From contig JAPLDJ010000016.1 in NCBI GenBank assembly GCA_026391805.1, forward strand, positions 62,001 through 126,000: 64,000 nt of DNA. Direction: 5' to 3'. Of the stretch, positions 24,101 through 42,582 are shown one piece after another. The notes under the pieces were generated by a model that had not been told where the DNA came from, did no database searches, and saw only the letters and a program-made list of their open reading frames with translations. The DNA is from Bacteroidota bacterium. Lineage in GTDB: Bacteria; Bacteroidota; Bacteroidia; Bacteroidales; FEN-979. Position numbers and translations under genes: made by a program. Position 1 is the stretch's first letter, and the number at the start of each line of letters is the position of its first letter.

Positions 24101-24287
24101 TCCCCTGGTTATTGCCAAGGGTGCGGGCGCTGCCAGTCGCCATGCCTTAGGCACTTCCGTTTTCGGGGGAATGCTGGTTGCCACGATCTGCGGAGTGCTT
24201 GTAGTTCCTTCGCTCTATGTGGCTTTCCAGAAACTGGAAAACCGGATGAAGGGGAAAAAGAAGGAAAGTAGCGAAGTAGCGAAGTAG
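21150..24287 (+). CDS. RND family hydrophobe/amphiphile efflux pump (AcrB/MexB-like)
   Basis: 1045 residues, full length. N-terminal FITRPILSSVIAIMIALVGVLSLFTLPISQYPDIVPP is characteristic of HAE1 pumps. Twelve transmembrane helices and two large periplasmic loops are present. Helix 4 carries the proton-relay aspartates in GIVVDDAIVVLEA (about 400-412). The protein uses proton influx to export drugs, bile-like compounds or lipids through the partner channel. The last codons (SSEVAK) are read from an agcgaag word repeat that also provides the stop. Operon with adaptor and outer channel. Confidence 0.97.
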   Translation: MLQQFITRPILSSVIAIMIALVGVLSLFTLPISQYPDIVPPTVQITAFYPGANAQDVQKVVAVPLEEQINGVDNMIYMTSQCANDGSCNITVYFEVGTNPDMATVNVQNRTQRAMNVLPPEVVQGGVIVQKKSTSILMLYSLISHDTAYDVKFLANYLNINIVNVLKRIRGVSDVTMFGGDDYAMRIWLNPEKMAGLGISVQDVQSAIKDQNVQAAAGQIGKNPAAPGQEMSIMIKVQGRLLDEKQFSEIIIKANSDGSLVRMKDIARVEMGMKTYDAMGRFNGKPAPAIAVYQAPGSNAVNLRKELDGTMEELAKEFPTGITYEKGLDTVEFVTASVEEVLSTLVEAFILVFIVVFLFLQDWRATLIPAITVPISLVGALATFSMLGFSINLLTLFALVLAIGIVVDDAIVVLEAIQEKIDAEGLEPLEAAKHTMKEITPAIVTITMVLCAVFVPVSFLGGVTGVMYKQFALTLISSILISALLALTLSPPLCVMLLKPKKQKKGLIGKFFRGFDKGFEKTTNGYLKIAGGFTHHLARPVMFLLIVLVMAVVVMKFLPTGFLPPEDQGYFFINITTPKAYALEKTDAVMREVETILSKTDGVESFTTIPGYSILDNSVNTTNGMAFVKLKDWKVRGIKRNVGVIIREVQAKFSKIPGGLCMAFNAPSIPGLGKTGGLEFQLQDKIGAGLDKMTEVNQTFQTELLKRKEFINAFSPFRNDIPQYELTVDKEKAKVLGVPVNTVYTTLQGLFGSYYVNDFNKFGKSYRVIIQADARYRANKEDISKAYVKSSNGNMVPLGTLVDIKPTQGPDIVKRFNLYSSADYTIAIAPGYATGEAIQAVKEVTDKSLPYGFGYDYSGMTREELISGGQAPFIFTLCFIFVFFLLAAKYESWLLPIPVLLAIPFGVFGAFGLQWAFGYQNNIFAQIGLIMLIGLVAKNAILIVEFAKQKHDMGHPLIDAALEGAKLRFRPILMTSFAFILGVVPLVIAKGAGAASRHALGTSVFGGMLVATICGVLVVPSLYVAFQKLENRMKGKKKESSEVAK

Positions 24288-24382
24288 GGAAAAGCGCCGG
24301 TTGCTTCGGCACTTCGTGCCTCGCAATGACAAAAGTAAAATGACAAAAATGGAGATTGCTTCGTCGCTGGCTCCTCGCAATA
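24268..24382. repeat. Word repeats overlapping the RND pump stop codon and two ATTGCTTCG elements
   Basis: gtagcgaagtagcgaagtag forms the last codons and stop of the pump gene. Two palindromic elements of the form TTGCTTCG(stem)CGCAATAAC/GAC follow (ggcac/gtgcc stem in the first). The same family occurs at 10110-10190. Confidence 0.75.
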
Positions 24383-24412
24383 ACAAAAAATCGTAATTCG
24401 TAAATAAAAAAT

Positions 24413-25789
24413 ATGGTACTCAAAAATTATAAAATAATCTCCTCCTGCATCCTGGTCATTTTGCTGATCGCAGGTTGCAAGATCGGCCCGAATTACAAGC
24501 AGCCTCAATATGACCTGGGAAAGAATTACCGTTTTGCGAAGAGTGCGGATACGCTCTCGCTGGCCGATACCTCCTGGAGTTACCTGTTCACTGATCCCGT
24601 TCTTAAAGCGCTTATTAAAAAAGGGCTCGAAAACAATTTCGACCTGAAGATCGCGGTCGAAAGGGTAAACCAAGCGACTGCATCTTTCAAGGAAGCAAGA
24701 GCAGCCATCTGGCCATCGATCGGCGCCGAGGCAAACGGCTCCCTGAACACGATACAGACACCCTTGGCAGGAGGAAATACGACGAGCTATAACGACCTCT
24801 ATGCCGTTGGAGCGCTGTCGTGGGAACTTGATGTCTGGGGCAAGCTCCGCAGGTCAAAAGAGTCGGCAAGAGCCCAGATGCTCTCGCAGGTTGCTTACAG
24901 GCAAAGCGTGTATATTTCCCTGATTGCAGAAATTGCAACCGCCTATTTCTCCCTGCTTGACTACAGGGATGAGGTTGAGATTGCACGTGAAACAGTAAGG
25001 ATAAGGACAGAAGGGCTGGAACTGGTCAGGGGTAAACTCCTTGCCGGAACCGTTTCAGGGCTGACCGTAGCCCAGGCGGAAGCAGAACTGGCACAGGTAA
25101 AAGCAGAGCTCCCGGCCTACGAGAAAGCCGCCGCTTTACAGGAAAATGCACTTAAACTCCTCCTGGGTGAATTGCCGGGTGAAATCGTTGCAGGCGATTC
25201 CATCACAAGACAGATCAACCCGAATATTATTCCTGAAGCAGGAATACCTTCACAACTCATCGTCCGCAGACCCGACCTCATTGCAGCCGAACAGCAGCTG
25301 GTTTCGGCCAACGCCCAGATCGGTGTTGCGCGGGGAATGATGCTCCCCTCATTAAGCATCAACGCAAATGCAGGATATTCAACGCTGGGAGCCGGCTGGA
25401 TCGGTTCCGCCGTCGGGAGCCTGGTTGCCCCGATCTTCAGCTTTGGAAAGCTAAGGGCGAATCTGAAAAGAACACAGGCATACCATGAAGAAATTCTGAT
25501 CACATATCAGAAAAGCATCTATACGGCTATTTCCGAAGTATCCGACGGCATTATGACTGTGGAAAAACAGAAAGAAATCTCAGTCGAAAGCCGGAACCTT
25601 ACCAATGCTGCACAAACCGCATTCGATCTGGCCTATCAGTTGTTTAATGCCGGCTATGCTTCCTATCTTGATGTGATTGACGTCCAACGTCAGTTGTACA
25701 GCGCACAGATCAACGAGTCGCAGGCACATTATGCCGAACTCTCCTCTGTTGTGAACCTGTACAAGGCGCTGGGAGGCGGCTGGAAGTAA
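24413..25789 (+). CDS. Outer-membrane efflux lipoprotein (OprM/NodT, TolC family)
   Basis: 458 residues. Lipobox VILLIAGC near residue 21, followed by KIGPNYKQP, the classic start of NodT-family factors (CxxGPDYxxP). Two homologous alpha-helical/beta repeats follow, with the internal motif QLIVRRPDLIAAEQQLVSANAQIGVARGMMLPSLSI (about 279-314). It forms the exit duct of the tripartite pump and is acylated in the outer membrane. It starts 125 bp after the pump, the gap being filled with repeats. The stop is followed by another AGCGAAA repeat. Confidence 0.95.
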   Translation: MVLKNYKIISSCILVILLIAGCKIGPNYKQPQYDLGKNYRFAKSADTLSLADTSWSYLFTDPVLKALIKKGLENNFDLKIAVERVNQATASFKEARAAIWPSIGAEANGSLNTIQTPLAGGNTTSYNDLYAVGALSWELDVWGKLRRSKESARAQMLSQVAYRQSVYISLIAEIATAYFSLLDYRDEVEIARETVRIRTEGLELVRGKLLAGTVSGLTVAQAEAELAQVKAELPAYEKAAALQENALKLLLGELPGEIVAGDSITRQINPNIIPEAGIPSQLIVRRPDLIAAEQQLVSANAQIGVARGMMLPSLSINANAGYSTLGAGWIGSAVGSLVAPIFSFGKLRANLKRTQAYHEEILITYQKSIYTAISEVSDGIMTVEKQKEISVESRNLTNAAQTAFDLAYQLFNAGYASYLDVIDVQRQLYSAQINESQAHYAELSSVVNLYKALGGGWK

Positions 25790-27125: not shown

Positions 27126-27236
27126 TTTCTCGCAGAGTCTCGCTGATTAATCGCAGAGTTCCGCAGAAAAGTGATAATGTGAATTTAAACTCTGCGCAAC
27201 TTAGCGAAAAACTCTGCGCAACTCAGCGTGAAATAT
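27126..27236. repeat. ~110-bp inverted-repeat-bounded element (CGCAGAG type)
   Basis: tttctcgcagagtctcgc and cgcagagttccgcaga on the left are mirrored by aactctgcgcaact (twice) and cagcgtgaaa on the right, forming imperfect arms. It lies between the convergent porin and PLC-barrel genes. Close relative of the element at 31827. Confidence 0.75.
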
Positions 27237-27305: not shown

Positions 27306-29204
27306 TCAGGACTTCTTTCCGGAAAAATAATATCTCCAGTCAAAGATGAAGCGCAGGCCACAATACCAGATGGATCTGACTTCAGGGACCGGGATGTTTT
27401 CGGAGGTAACGAGGGTTTCTTTACCGGGAATGTCAACTCCTCCGAAGATCTGTATCATTAGGCCGGCTGTCTGATCGGATGAGAACATATGGAAGGGCCG
27501 GTACTCAAGGACAGGAAATTCAATTTGTGTAGAATGAAAGGAGATCACTGCCTGGTCTGCAACACCGTTGATGGTCACCGGAACGATAAACGTGTCAGGA
27601 TTTTTGCCATATCCGAAGAAGCAGACTCCTACTTCCCTGCCCAGCACGAACTGGAACCTGCCGATGGAGCTCAGCATCCCGGCCTGCCAGGGGATCAGTC
27701 CGCCGTTACCTGCAGTTGCAATCATTGTCGACGCGGCTTTCGGGGCAAAAATATAGAGGATCGGCGCTACTACCAGCAGGTCTCCCGGCACGATGTAAAA
27801 AGGCATCCGGAGCCTTAGATGTATGCCGTTCCTGTAAGGTATTGCAGATGAAATGTTGCCATACTTTTCCAGGTCCGGATCAGCCGCTAATTTTATGGTC
27901 GACGAACCGTCCAGCCTGTAGCCCGCCTCGAGGAACACGGCCCCGTCACTTGCTTCATTGAGGATTCCCTCGAGGCCAAGTCCGACACGGAAATTCACTT
28001 CCAGTCCGGTTATCTCTCCGGCCGTATTCTGGCTTTCGCAAAAACCATTAAATACGGCATTCCCTCTAAGTGCGGCACTCAGCCCGATGAACGGTCCCAG
28101 TTCCGCCCTGAACCTTGGAAGTTCTCCTGCACCCTGCGCAAGCCCGGGCCTGGCTGTCGATCTGAAGATGTCCTTAAACAGCGAAATAGCCAGCGTGTCC
28201 CTTTCGATTGCAGGCATTACCAGTGCCTTGCAAACGTTAAATGTATCGGGAACGGAAGCCGGTTTTGATGCAGATGTGATCAACGACGAATACTTTCCGG
28301 AGGCTGCATCGACGATCTGCTCCAGGCTTCTCACAACGGTCATGGCTGCAAGGTCGGCATCTTCCGGCCGCATGAATGCATCTCCCATAAGGACCATCCC
28401 TTCTCCTTCCCAGGAGTAAGCCTCAATACCTGTTTCGTCGTAGTGATCGTGGGTCCCTTTCCGCTGTGCGGCATTTCCCCTGGTTCCTGCCACGTGACCG
28501 GAGGCAAACATGTCTTCGAGGAAATGGAGACCAAAACCCTCATCTGCAAAGGCGGAAAAGAGCAGATCGGCCGACTTTTCAGCGGAGGGATTTTCAGCAT
28601 ACGCCTTTGCTTTCCTCAATGCACTAAGATGGTAATATGTATAGGTTCCCGGTGCATTCAGCTCGCATCCTGCTTTTGCACAGGCACTCAGAAACTGAAC
28701 CATATCCGTGTTGACCTCTTTCCTTGCCAGCATGAAATGAACGTTGTTGGCTCCTGCCCTGGTGACATACTCCGGGTCGGCTTTCAGCAGCCTCAGGTCC
28801 GAATCCCGCAGTTTGTTCAGCCGGTCGGTGCGGTTCTTTGCATTTGCAAGACCGGTCCTCAGTTCAAAAGCAACATCGGAAACTTTAAAGATCCAATCGG
28901 TGGTGAGGACCGAATGCACCATATCGGAGGCTGAAGTCGAATGGTCTCCACCGATGGCAGGGAAGGTTGCATAATCCAGGAACTTTGTTCCTTTAGAAAT
29001 GCCGGTATCGGCAGGTAATGCCGAAAGCCTTGATTCACGGCCTGTCCTGGCCTGCAACCACAACCGTTCAAATGAAGCCCTCCGGGCAGGATCAAGTTTC
29101 TGAATGGCAAGTACCATGATGTCCCGGTGTTCCGGGAAGATCCAGCAGAATCCTTCCTGGGCTGCCAGGATCAGTATCAGGATAATCGTGACAATTCTTT
29201 TCAT
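27306..29204 (-). CDS. Zinc phospholipase C/S1-P1 nuclease-like domain fused to an outer-membrane barrel
   Basis: 632 residues from ATG 29204; the frame continues upstream only to a TTG. The signal peptide ends ..EGFC before Trp21, so the mature chain would start with Trp, as in the zinc-dependent PLC/S1-P1 fold where the N-terminal Trp binds zinc. All nine expected ligands can be matched: W21, H26, D77, H88, H227, D231 (HFLED), H237 (SGH), H252 and D256 (HDHYD). The spacings W-H 5, H-D 4, D-H 6 and H-D 4 equal those of nuclease S1. From about residue 345 to the end are alternating beta strands ending FIFDWRYYF, an outer-membrane barrel. It follows the DUF481-like gene by 42 bp. Substrate (phospholipid or nucleic acid) unknown. 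Confidence 0.75.
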   Translation of the reverse strand: MKRIVTIILILILAAQEGFCWIFPEHRDIMVLAIQKLDPARRASFERLWLQARTGRESRLSALPADTGISKGTKFLDYATFPAIGGDHSTSASDMVHSVLTTDWIFKVSDVAFELRTGLANAKNRTDRLNKLRDSDLRLLKADPEYVTRAGANNVHFMLARKEVNTDMVQFLSACAKAGCELNAPGTYTYYHLSALRKAKAYAENPSAEKSADLLFSAFADEGFGLHFLEDMFASGHVAGTRGNAAQRKGTHDHYDETGIEAYSWEGEGMVLMGDAFMRPEDADLAAMTVVRSLEQIVDAASGKYSSLITSASKPASVPDTFNVCKALVMPAIERDTLAISLFKDIFRSTARPGLAQGAGELPRFRAELGPFIGLSAALRGNAVFNGFCESQNTAGEITGLEVNFRVGLGLEGILNEASDGAVFLEAGYRLDGSSTIKLAADPDLEKYGNISSAIPYRNGIHLRLRMPFYIVPGDLLVVAPILYIFAPKAASTMIATAGNGGLIPWQAGMLSSIGRFQFVLGREVGVCFFGYGKNPDTFIVPVTINGVADQAVISFHSTQIEFPVLEYRPFHMFSSDQTAGLMIQIFGGVDIPGKETLVTSENIPVPEVRSIWYCGLRFIFDWRYYFSGKKS

Positions 29205-29246: not shown

Positions 29247-30293
29247 CTAAAATGAATATCCTACCGAAAAGATCACGCTCCAGTCGTTCAGTTCCGGTCC
29301 GCCGCCGGATGGCTTGCTGTCATAATCGTCATAGAAGGTCAGACCCAAAAACAGGTCGGTGACAATCTCATATTTGGCAGAAAGGTTATACTCAAGCCGC
29401 CACCGGTTACTGACAGTAAAACTCGGATATGCACTGAAACTGGTGGAGATGTTGATCTTCGGATGACGGTACTGGAGCCAGGTAAACTTGGTGGACATAA
29501 GCCCCTCAAAATTGCTCGAAAAACTGACCGAGTCTGTCGGTTTTTCCCTGTTCACGATTAATCCGCCCATAACATATAACCGGACAGGATTTGTTCGTAC
29601 GATGTCATACCCGGCAGCCAGGCCCAGCTGGATCCTGTAGTCGAGATCCAGCTCAGTATTCTGCTGCATTTTTGCCCCTATTCCACCCCACCACTTTCCC
29701 TGAAAAAAATGAGAATAACTGAGGCTGACGTCATTTTTCCTTGAAATCATAAGCGAATCCGCAACATCCTGTTCACTGAAAAGAAGATCCATCTCCAGAG
29801 ATAACAGGTCCTTTCGGCCCCGGTAATTCAGGATGCCGTCGAAATAGTACTGTAAGGTCTGGGTGGACTTGTAATAACTCACTCCCAGGTCGACGGAACC
29901 GTAGAATTTTTTCCAGAACCGGTGCTTGATGGGGGTGATTTCGACGATGTCTGAAATGGCTTCGGTGATCGTATCATTGGTGACACAGATGCCGACGGAC
30001 CTTTCCGTTTCCGAGACGGTGATCGAACCGTAGTAGCTGAAACCTGTTTTCTTAACAATTTCAAAGTATTTGGAAGAATGGACGGTCCTGATCTTGTCAT
30101 ACTCGATGTTCAGGGTGCTCATCCCGTCTGTTTTCAGGTAGAGCAGCCCGTTTTCATATTTTTTAAACTCACCGGTGATCCGGTCGCCGTTCAGGAGATA
30201 AACGGTATCATTTTTTTGTGCCTGCGCGCTGCCGGCGATGGTGCACAAAAGGATGATCAAAAGAAGTGAATAACCGGGTTGAGTACCGTTCAC
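29247..30293 (-). CDS. DUF481/YdiY-like outer-membrane protein
   Basis: 348 residues from a GTG start; no in-frame ATG exists upstream before a stop. Signal peptide ends GSAQAQ. The N-terminal about 90 residues form a small beta domain (DTVYLLNGDRITGEFKKYENG). The rest is a barrel with strands such as FYGSVDLGVSYYKS, WWGGIGAKMQQN and a C-terminal WSVIFSVGYSF. This pattern fits DUF481 barrels, sometimes called salt-induced outer-membrane proteins. It directly precedes the PLC-barrel gene and is probably co-transcribed, suggesting a joint envelope function. Confidence 0.75.
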   Translation of the reverse strand: MNGTQPGYSLLLIILLCTIAGSAQAQKNDTVYLLNGDRITGEFKKYENGLLYLKTDGMSTLNIEYDKIRTVHSSKYFEIVKKTGFSYYGSITVSETERSVGICVTNDTITEAISDIVEITPIKHRFWKKFYGSVDLGVSYYKSTQTLQYYFDGILNYRGRKDLLSLEMDLLFSEQDVADSLMISRKNDVSLSYSHFFQGKWWGGIGAKMQQNTELDLDYRIQLGLAAGYDIVRTNPVRLYVMGGLIVNREKPTDSVSFSSNFEGLMSTKFTWLQYRHPKINISTSFSAYPSFTVSNRWRLEYNLSAKYEIVTDLFLGLTFYDDYDSKPSGGGPELNDWSVIFSVGYSF

Positions 30294-31826: not shown

Positions 31827-31934
31827 TTTCTCGCAGAGTTTCGCAGAGTTTTACGCTGAGTTCCGCAAAGTTAAATTAAACCAAATCGGTTTTCTGCGTA
31901 ACTCTGCGGTTCTTCTGCGAGCCTCTGCGAGAAA
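31827..31934. repeat. 108-bp inverted-repeat-bounded element (CGCAGAG type)
   Basis: Perfect 12-bp arms tttctcgcagag (31827-31838) and ctctgcgagaaa (31923-31934). The interior repeats tcgcagag, ttccgcaaag, ctgcgtaactctgcgg and ttctgcgag. It lies between the porin and DASS genes of one apparent operon, so it could act as a terminator or processing site within it. Confidence 0.85.
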
Positions 31935-42484: not shown

Positions 42485-42582
42485 GAATCTTTTTCTCGCA
42501 GAGTTTCGCAGATGACGGATAACGTACAAAATAACTCTGCGTAACTCAGCGAAAAACTTTGCGTAACTCTGCGTGACATTTT
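42485..42582. repeat. ~95-bp inverted-repeat element (CGCAGAG type), between + strand genes
   Basis: tctcgcagagtttcgcaga on the left is opposed by tttgcgtaactctgcgtgaca on the right (13 of 15 central positions pair), with additional ctctgcgtaactcagcgaaa words between. It is downstream of the kinase-like gene. Confidence 0.7.

Follow-up and report, generated by a model that had tools for sequence, protein, structure and literature searches.

A zinc phospholipase C/S1-P1-like domain fused to a predicted outer-membrane barrel in Bacteroidota and other phyla

We analysed a 64,000-nucleotide stretch of DNA, referred to here as the window, from a Bacteroidota bacterium (Bacteroidales; FEN-979; assembly GCA_026391805.1, contig JAPLDJ010000016.1, positions 62,001-126,000 of the forward strand). 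A gene on its minus strand, which starts with ATG at position 29204 and reads as an open reading frame of 632 amino acids, encodes a signal peptide, an N-terminal domain of the zinc-dependent phospholipase C (PLC)/S1-P1 fold and a C-terminal outer-membrane barrel. The fold and the fusion are solid, and the barrel, the invariance of the fusion, the conserved ligands and the position of the N-terminal Trp or Phe are likewise supported computationally. From these features we infer that the protein binds metal and faces the periplasm. It seems plausible, with a probability of about 0.5, that it is a phospholipase-C-like hydrolase tethered to the outer membrane and acting on the phospholipids of that membrane. 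Neither Pfam nor NCBIfam holds an entry for the family, which is uncharacterised. The features of the gene, all on the minus strand, are as follows.

27306..29204, minus strand: whole gene, 632 aa, comprising signal peptide, PLC/S1-P1-fold domain and outer-membrane barrel (reading frame, translation, full-length relatives)
29145..29204, minus strand: signal peptide, residues 1-20, with a hydrophobic core and a putative cut before Trp21
28170..29144, minus strand: all-helical PLC/S1-P1-fold domain, residues 21-345; the model spans 21-350 (domain model and PDB matches)
29127..29144, minus strand: N-terminal metal-binding motif W21-x4-H26 (WIFPEH)
28941..28976, minus strand: D77 ... D87-H88; D77 and H88 are proposed Zn1 ligands and D87 is also invariant
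28494..28526, minus strand: H227-x3-D231-x5-H237, spaced as H141/D145/H151 of SmNuc1
28437..28451, minus strand: H252-D253-x-x-D256, with H252 and D253 invariant and the D256 position variable
27321..28106, minus strand: outer-membrane barrel, residues 367-628, about eight strands (model strands and structural matches)
27708..27782, minus strand: two helices, residues 475-499, between strands 4 and 5 (model and conservation)

Fold, mature N-terminus and metal ligands

Searches of Pfam and NCBIfam gave no match to the 632-aa protein up to an E-value of 5, and the PDB sequences gave none with either a single sequence or a profile. The PF00882 profile of zinc-dependent PLC does not match it up to an E-value of 5 (the one PF00882 protein of the genome is a different gene), and PF02265 of the S1/P1 nucleases matches neither this protein nor anything else in the genome. 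An AlphaFold2 model of residues 21-350 alone was built from 78 sequences and realigned against the best 1000 PDB chains. The model has a mean predicted local distance difference test score (pLDDT) of 92.6 and a predicted template modelling score (pTM) of 0.93, and the top 20 PDB entries all belong to the PLC/S1-P1 superfamily, with Z-scores from 8.0 to 10.2. Clostridial PLC reaches 10.2, followed by SmNuc1 (9.7), B. cereus PLC (1ah7, 9.2), Listeria PC-PLC (8cqm, 9.1), S1 (8.8), TBN1 (8.7) and P1 (8.2). The next and unrelated entry, talin, scores 4.2, and because of this gap a chance likeness of helical bundles is unlikely. The fold, which an earlier note had proposed from the sequence alone, is thus borne out by the model.

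The same note had placed the cut of the signal peptide exactly before Trp21, and our analysis agrees. In all of the 20 top PDB entries Trp21, the first residue of the model, aligns with residue 1 of the mature enzyme. Ligand conservation was counted in the 78 sequences: the first position is Trp in 76 and Phe in two, while the residue preceding it is Ala, Gly or Cys in 75. Judged from the pattern of residues at -3 and -1, this is consistent with signal-peptidase cleavage directly before the conserved Trp or Phe. Cys20 of the window protein (EGFC-W) also allowed a lipoprotein reading, which is ruled out as relatives carry Ala or Gly at this position. In Listeria PC-PLC, W1A, W1E and W1K lower the activity whereas W1F causes no significant drop, and one residue added before W1 switches the activity off (PMC10576769). 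The restriction to Trp or Phe and the small preceding residue seen here fit those data.

Besides the first position, His26, Asp77, His88, His227, Asp231, His237 and His252 are each invariant in all 78 sequences, which goes beyond chance. All nine residues named in the earlier note, these together with Trp21 and Asp256, stand at the positions it gave, and its claim that four spacings equal those of an S1/P1 nuclease holds when checked against SmNuc1, whose ligands are W27, H32, D71, H88, H141, D145, H151, H175 and D179 (PMC11705217). The equal intervals are W-H (5), H-D (4), H-H (10) and H-D (4), whereas the D-H interval (11) and the H237-H252 interval (15) differ from those of SmNuc1. The family also has invariant residues of its own outside the known ligands, namely D143, Y146, R149, H156 and H192; like the last two, D253 is invariant in all 78 sequences and lies outside the classical ligand set.

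The claim that every expected residue is present needs correction, as the ninth proposed ligand is not maintained. The D256 position is Asn in 61, Asp in 14, Cys in two and Ser in one of the 78 sequences. Judged from the alignment, eight of the nine ligands hold and the replacement of the ninth is a real departure from the classical set. The neighbouring Asp253 may substitute for D256 as a ligand.

The barrel and the spread of the fusion

The full-length model (pLDDT 84.9, pTM 0.76) places strands at approximately 369-384, 396-411, 423-432, 458-466, 515-530, 537-574, 578-600 and 612-626, which agrees with the C-terminal barrel proposed earlier. Residues 367-628 match the eight-stranded barrels NspA, OmpA, OmpW and PagL with Z-scores of about 10-11.8. 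The two helices at 475-499 are flanked by the invariant residues P473, D475, G501, G502 and Q507 and would form a periplasmic turn if the termini of the barrel are periplasmic. As an even-stranded barrel is most naturally read with both termini in the periplasm, the enzyme domain and these helices would lie at the inner leaflet. Anchoring of the zinc site under the outer membrane, as suggested in the earlier note, is in line with this orientation.

Of 198 other related genomes, 28 carry relatives, nearly all of them full length. There were 15 matches in 395 genomes of the phylum, and 112 relatives were found among 84,980 species genomes. The best 80 of these 112, with 40-68% identity, were retained and come from Bacteroidota, Ignavibacteriota, Chlorobiota, Pseudomonadota (Variovorax, Steroidobacter and Gallionella) and Acidobacteriota. 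The same fusion is therefore present in other Bacteroidota, where the note had advised looking for it, and in further phyla. The N-terminal domain is always accompanied by the barrel: among 199 relatives, all matched frames that are unbroken have a length of 634-687 aa. Plasmids gave no relatives, and among viral contigs there were eight pattern matches and no true relative. A locus from one record titled Alphaproteobacteria (INTA.CYC.164) is nearly identical to a Bacteroidales locus (the pair L040 and L104) and groups inside the Bacteroidales; it is probably mislabelled or contaminated.

Searches in both directions also found a second, distant clade of proteins of 553-609 aa (L122-L126) with no Pfam match. 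Its layout is the same, with a signal peptide, GDH/ADH, HF, H-x3-D-x5-H and HD motifs and a C-terminal Phe or Tyr. The His set is invariant in this clade, which has not preserved the D77 position. At the mature N-terminus stands Trp, Phe, Tyr or Gly, always five before the invariant first His.

Neighbouring genes and repeats of the window

Upstream of the gene, at 29247..30293 on the minus strand, lies a gene for a DUF481-type outer-membrane protein (PF04338, E-value 1.4e-15). The gap of 42 nt given in the earlier note is correct, and the two genes may be co-transcribed in the window. The suggestion that they are partners does not hold for the family: just two further members have a DUF481 homologue in the vicinity, at distances above 3 kb, and the tree implies three independent origins. 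The downstream FGE-OmpA genes occur only in one set of related Bacteroidales and are uninformative.

In the pseudomonadotal branch, a lipoprotein-like alpha/beta hydrolase adjoins the barrel enzyme in all seven named loci (L102, L105, L086, L108, L111, L107 and L103), on either side of it and in either orientation. It has an invariant GYSKG motif, His325 and Asp302, and matches models of phospholipase/carboxylesterase, cutinase and secretory lipase weakly, with no Pfam match above the cut-off. Genes for the mechanosensitive channel MscS lie near the barrel enzyme in eight of the 80 loci (L043, L044, L048, L051, L058, L060, L062 and L094), which belong to separate clades. In four of the eight the MscS gene directly precedes the barrel-enzyme gene in the same orientation, 6-44 nt away. 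The expected number is about 0.7, at 2.7 MscS genes per relative genome and 0.94 Mb of loci, a background rate taken from Bacteroidota relatives only and applied to loci that are not independent of one another. On the tree, the MscS label forces at least three changes.

Repeats were seen elsewhere in the window. Three intergenic palindromic elements, at 27131-27228, 31832-31929 and 42497-42573, the fuller ones about 100 bp in length, are built of CGCAGAGTTTCGCAGA units, forward and then reverse (11 matches against 0.33 expected). The exact 16-mer occurs 25 times in the genome, often in tandem 22 bp apart, and the reversed control does not occur. In sequence, the elements are like repetitive extragenic palindromic (REP) elements. 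A stretch at 24109-24423 on the minus strand, between an RND pump gene and an OprM-like gene, reads CHCEARSAEA / VIARHEVPKQP and resembles a palindromic repeat present in many genomes.

Proposed function and comparison with known systems

We propose that the protein would be exported by Sec and cleaved by signal peptidase just before Trp21. The free amine of Trp21 together with H26, D77, H88, H227, D231, H237 and H252 would then form a zinc cluster of the PLC/S1-P1 type in the helical domain. With the eight-stranded barrel in the outer membrane and both of its ends in the periplasm, the active site would be held against the inner phospholipid leaflet, where cleavage of phospholipid headgroups of the phospholipase C kind may serve the turnover of outer-membrane lipids. 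B. cereus PLC carries an Asp-Tyr pair, and in 71 of the 78 sequences of the family D77 is followed by an aromatic residue. We favour a phospholipase over a nuclease because of this aromatic residue, the lost hallmarks of the nucleobase site, among them the replacement of an aromatic by the invariant Ser89 after H88 (78/78), the adjacent esterase-like lipoprotein, the recurrent MscS and the analogy with PlpD of P. aeruginosa. The patatin domain of PlpD is periplasmic and deletion of PlpD raises phospholipid levels (PMC11116518), in keeping with the likeness to the PlpD design that the earlier note had pointed out.

Several observations weigh against this proposal. Foldseek alone is weak for the domain (best E-value 0.11) and for the whole protein, and profile-profile comparison with Bacteroidota S1-P1 sequences gives only a weak local match (E-value 0.008, probability 4.9%). 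The structural matches do not separate the two activities, since phospholipases and nucleases score alike. With D256 mostly replaced by Asn, one of the zinc sites may lack its third ligand or have another in its place. Between the likely cut and the conserved Trp, three Robertkochia proteins (L079, L088 and L091) carry an additional 8-12 residues; this stretch is possibly a short propeptide, and by analogy with the Listeria proenzyme these proteins may need further trimming. Neighbouring genes vary between clades, and the alpha/beta hydrolase was not found in the genome of the window.

The same periplasm-facing zinc hydrolase might act instead on another phosphoester, such as the headgroup of ceramide phosphoethanolamine or other sphingolipids, phosphoethanolamine on glycans or lipopolysaccharide, or a soluble phosphodiester. 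This is a serious though doubtful alternative: the family's own invariant residues, D143 to H192, mean that its substrate site need not equal that of a known member, and clostridial PLCs also take sphingomyelin, but Pseudomonadota, which mostly lack sphingolipids, carry the gene too and lipid A normally lies on the opposite leaflet. An S1/P1-type nuclease or 3'-nucleotidase tethered to the membrane and acting on periplasmic nucleic acid is suggested by the S1/P1 spacing of W-x4-H and by the matches of SmNuc1, S1, TBN1 and P1 (Z 8.0-9.7). However, in SmNuc1 the aromatic Tyr89 follows the Zn1 His (PMC11705217), Bacteroidota S1-P1 loci read WHY/WHF at this site, and the family has neither this nucleobase-site aromatic nor the Arg/Lys motif that follows the Zn1 Asp in S1/P1 enzymes. 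A soluble nucleic acid would need no barrel anchor and the neighbouring genes indicate lipids and the envelope, which leaves a nuclease unlikely. Even less probable is an autotransporter-like protein whose barrel takes the enzyme domain to the cell surface; the order of an N-terminal enzyme and a C-terminal barrel recalls EstA and the older view of PlpD, but the best matches are eight-stranded barrels without a usable pore and PlpD itself is periplasmic (PMC11116518). It is very improbable that the protein is non-catalytic or has an altered metal and retains the zinc fold for structure or sensing, as the replacement of D256 and the unkept D77 position of the distant clade could suggest, given that seven His and Asp ligands never vary among the 78 sequences and that the distant clade likewise keeps the His set without exception.

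The phospholipase-C-like reading can be extended, tentatively and at longer odds, to a previously unnamed, multi-phylum class of outer-membrane enzymes whose PLC-fold metal site is altered, Asn replacing the ninth ligand and two further invariant residues, His156 and His192, being present. Facing the inner leaflet, this site would break down phospholipids of the outer membrane, in a pathway linked to tension or stress that would also involve MscS channels and a lipoprotein esterase. In diderms outside the enteric model, removal and recycling of outer-membrane phospholipids are little known, and a conserved tethered hydrolase offers a defined gene and domain for their study. The PLC/S1-P1 superfamily, which in the cited sources comprises secreted enzymes and toxin domains, would also come to include integral outer-membrane proteins, in which the metal site is naturally altered.

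The PLC/S1-P1 fold and the eight-stranded barrel are known already, as are hydrolase-barrel fusions by analogy. Neither the combination of the zinc-enzyme domain with a barrel nor its variant metal site seems to have been described, and the open-licence PMC literature, a scope outside which most subscription papers and preprints fall, gave no account of the fusion. The zinc-dependent PLCs (PF00882; B. cereus, Listeria and clostridial PC-PLC) share with the family the fold, the position of the N-terminal Trp and an Asp followed by an aromatic residue, but the present protein differs from them in its lack of a PF00882 match, its W-x4-H spacing, a ninth ligand that is mostly Asn and not acidic, and its C-terminal barrel. 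The S1/P1 nucleases (PF02265; S1, P1, TBN1 and SmNuc1) share the fold and the W-x4-H and H-x3-D-x5-H spacings, whereas here there is no PF02265 match, the nucleobase-site aromatic and Arg/Lys motif are lost and a barrel is present. The Het-C domain, the third member of the superfamily, has the same predicted fold and metal-site pattern (PMC3482391); unlike the window protein, which has no Pfam match at all, it occurs in polymorphic toxins and fungal proteins without a barrel. OmpA, NspA, OmpW and PagL resemble the barrel half. The active site of PagL lies in the barrel itself, while the present protein has a separate enzyme domain. PlpD, of the patatin-Omp85 type, is alike in having a lipid-hydrolase domain N-terminal to an outer-membrane barrel, in its periplasmic placement and in the analogous task proposed; with a patatin domain, POTRA and 16 strands, it differs in the fold of both halves, and the relation between the two proteins is one of analogy.
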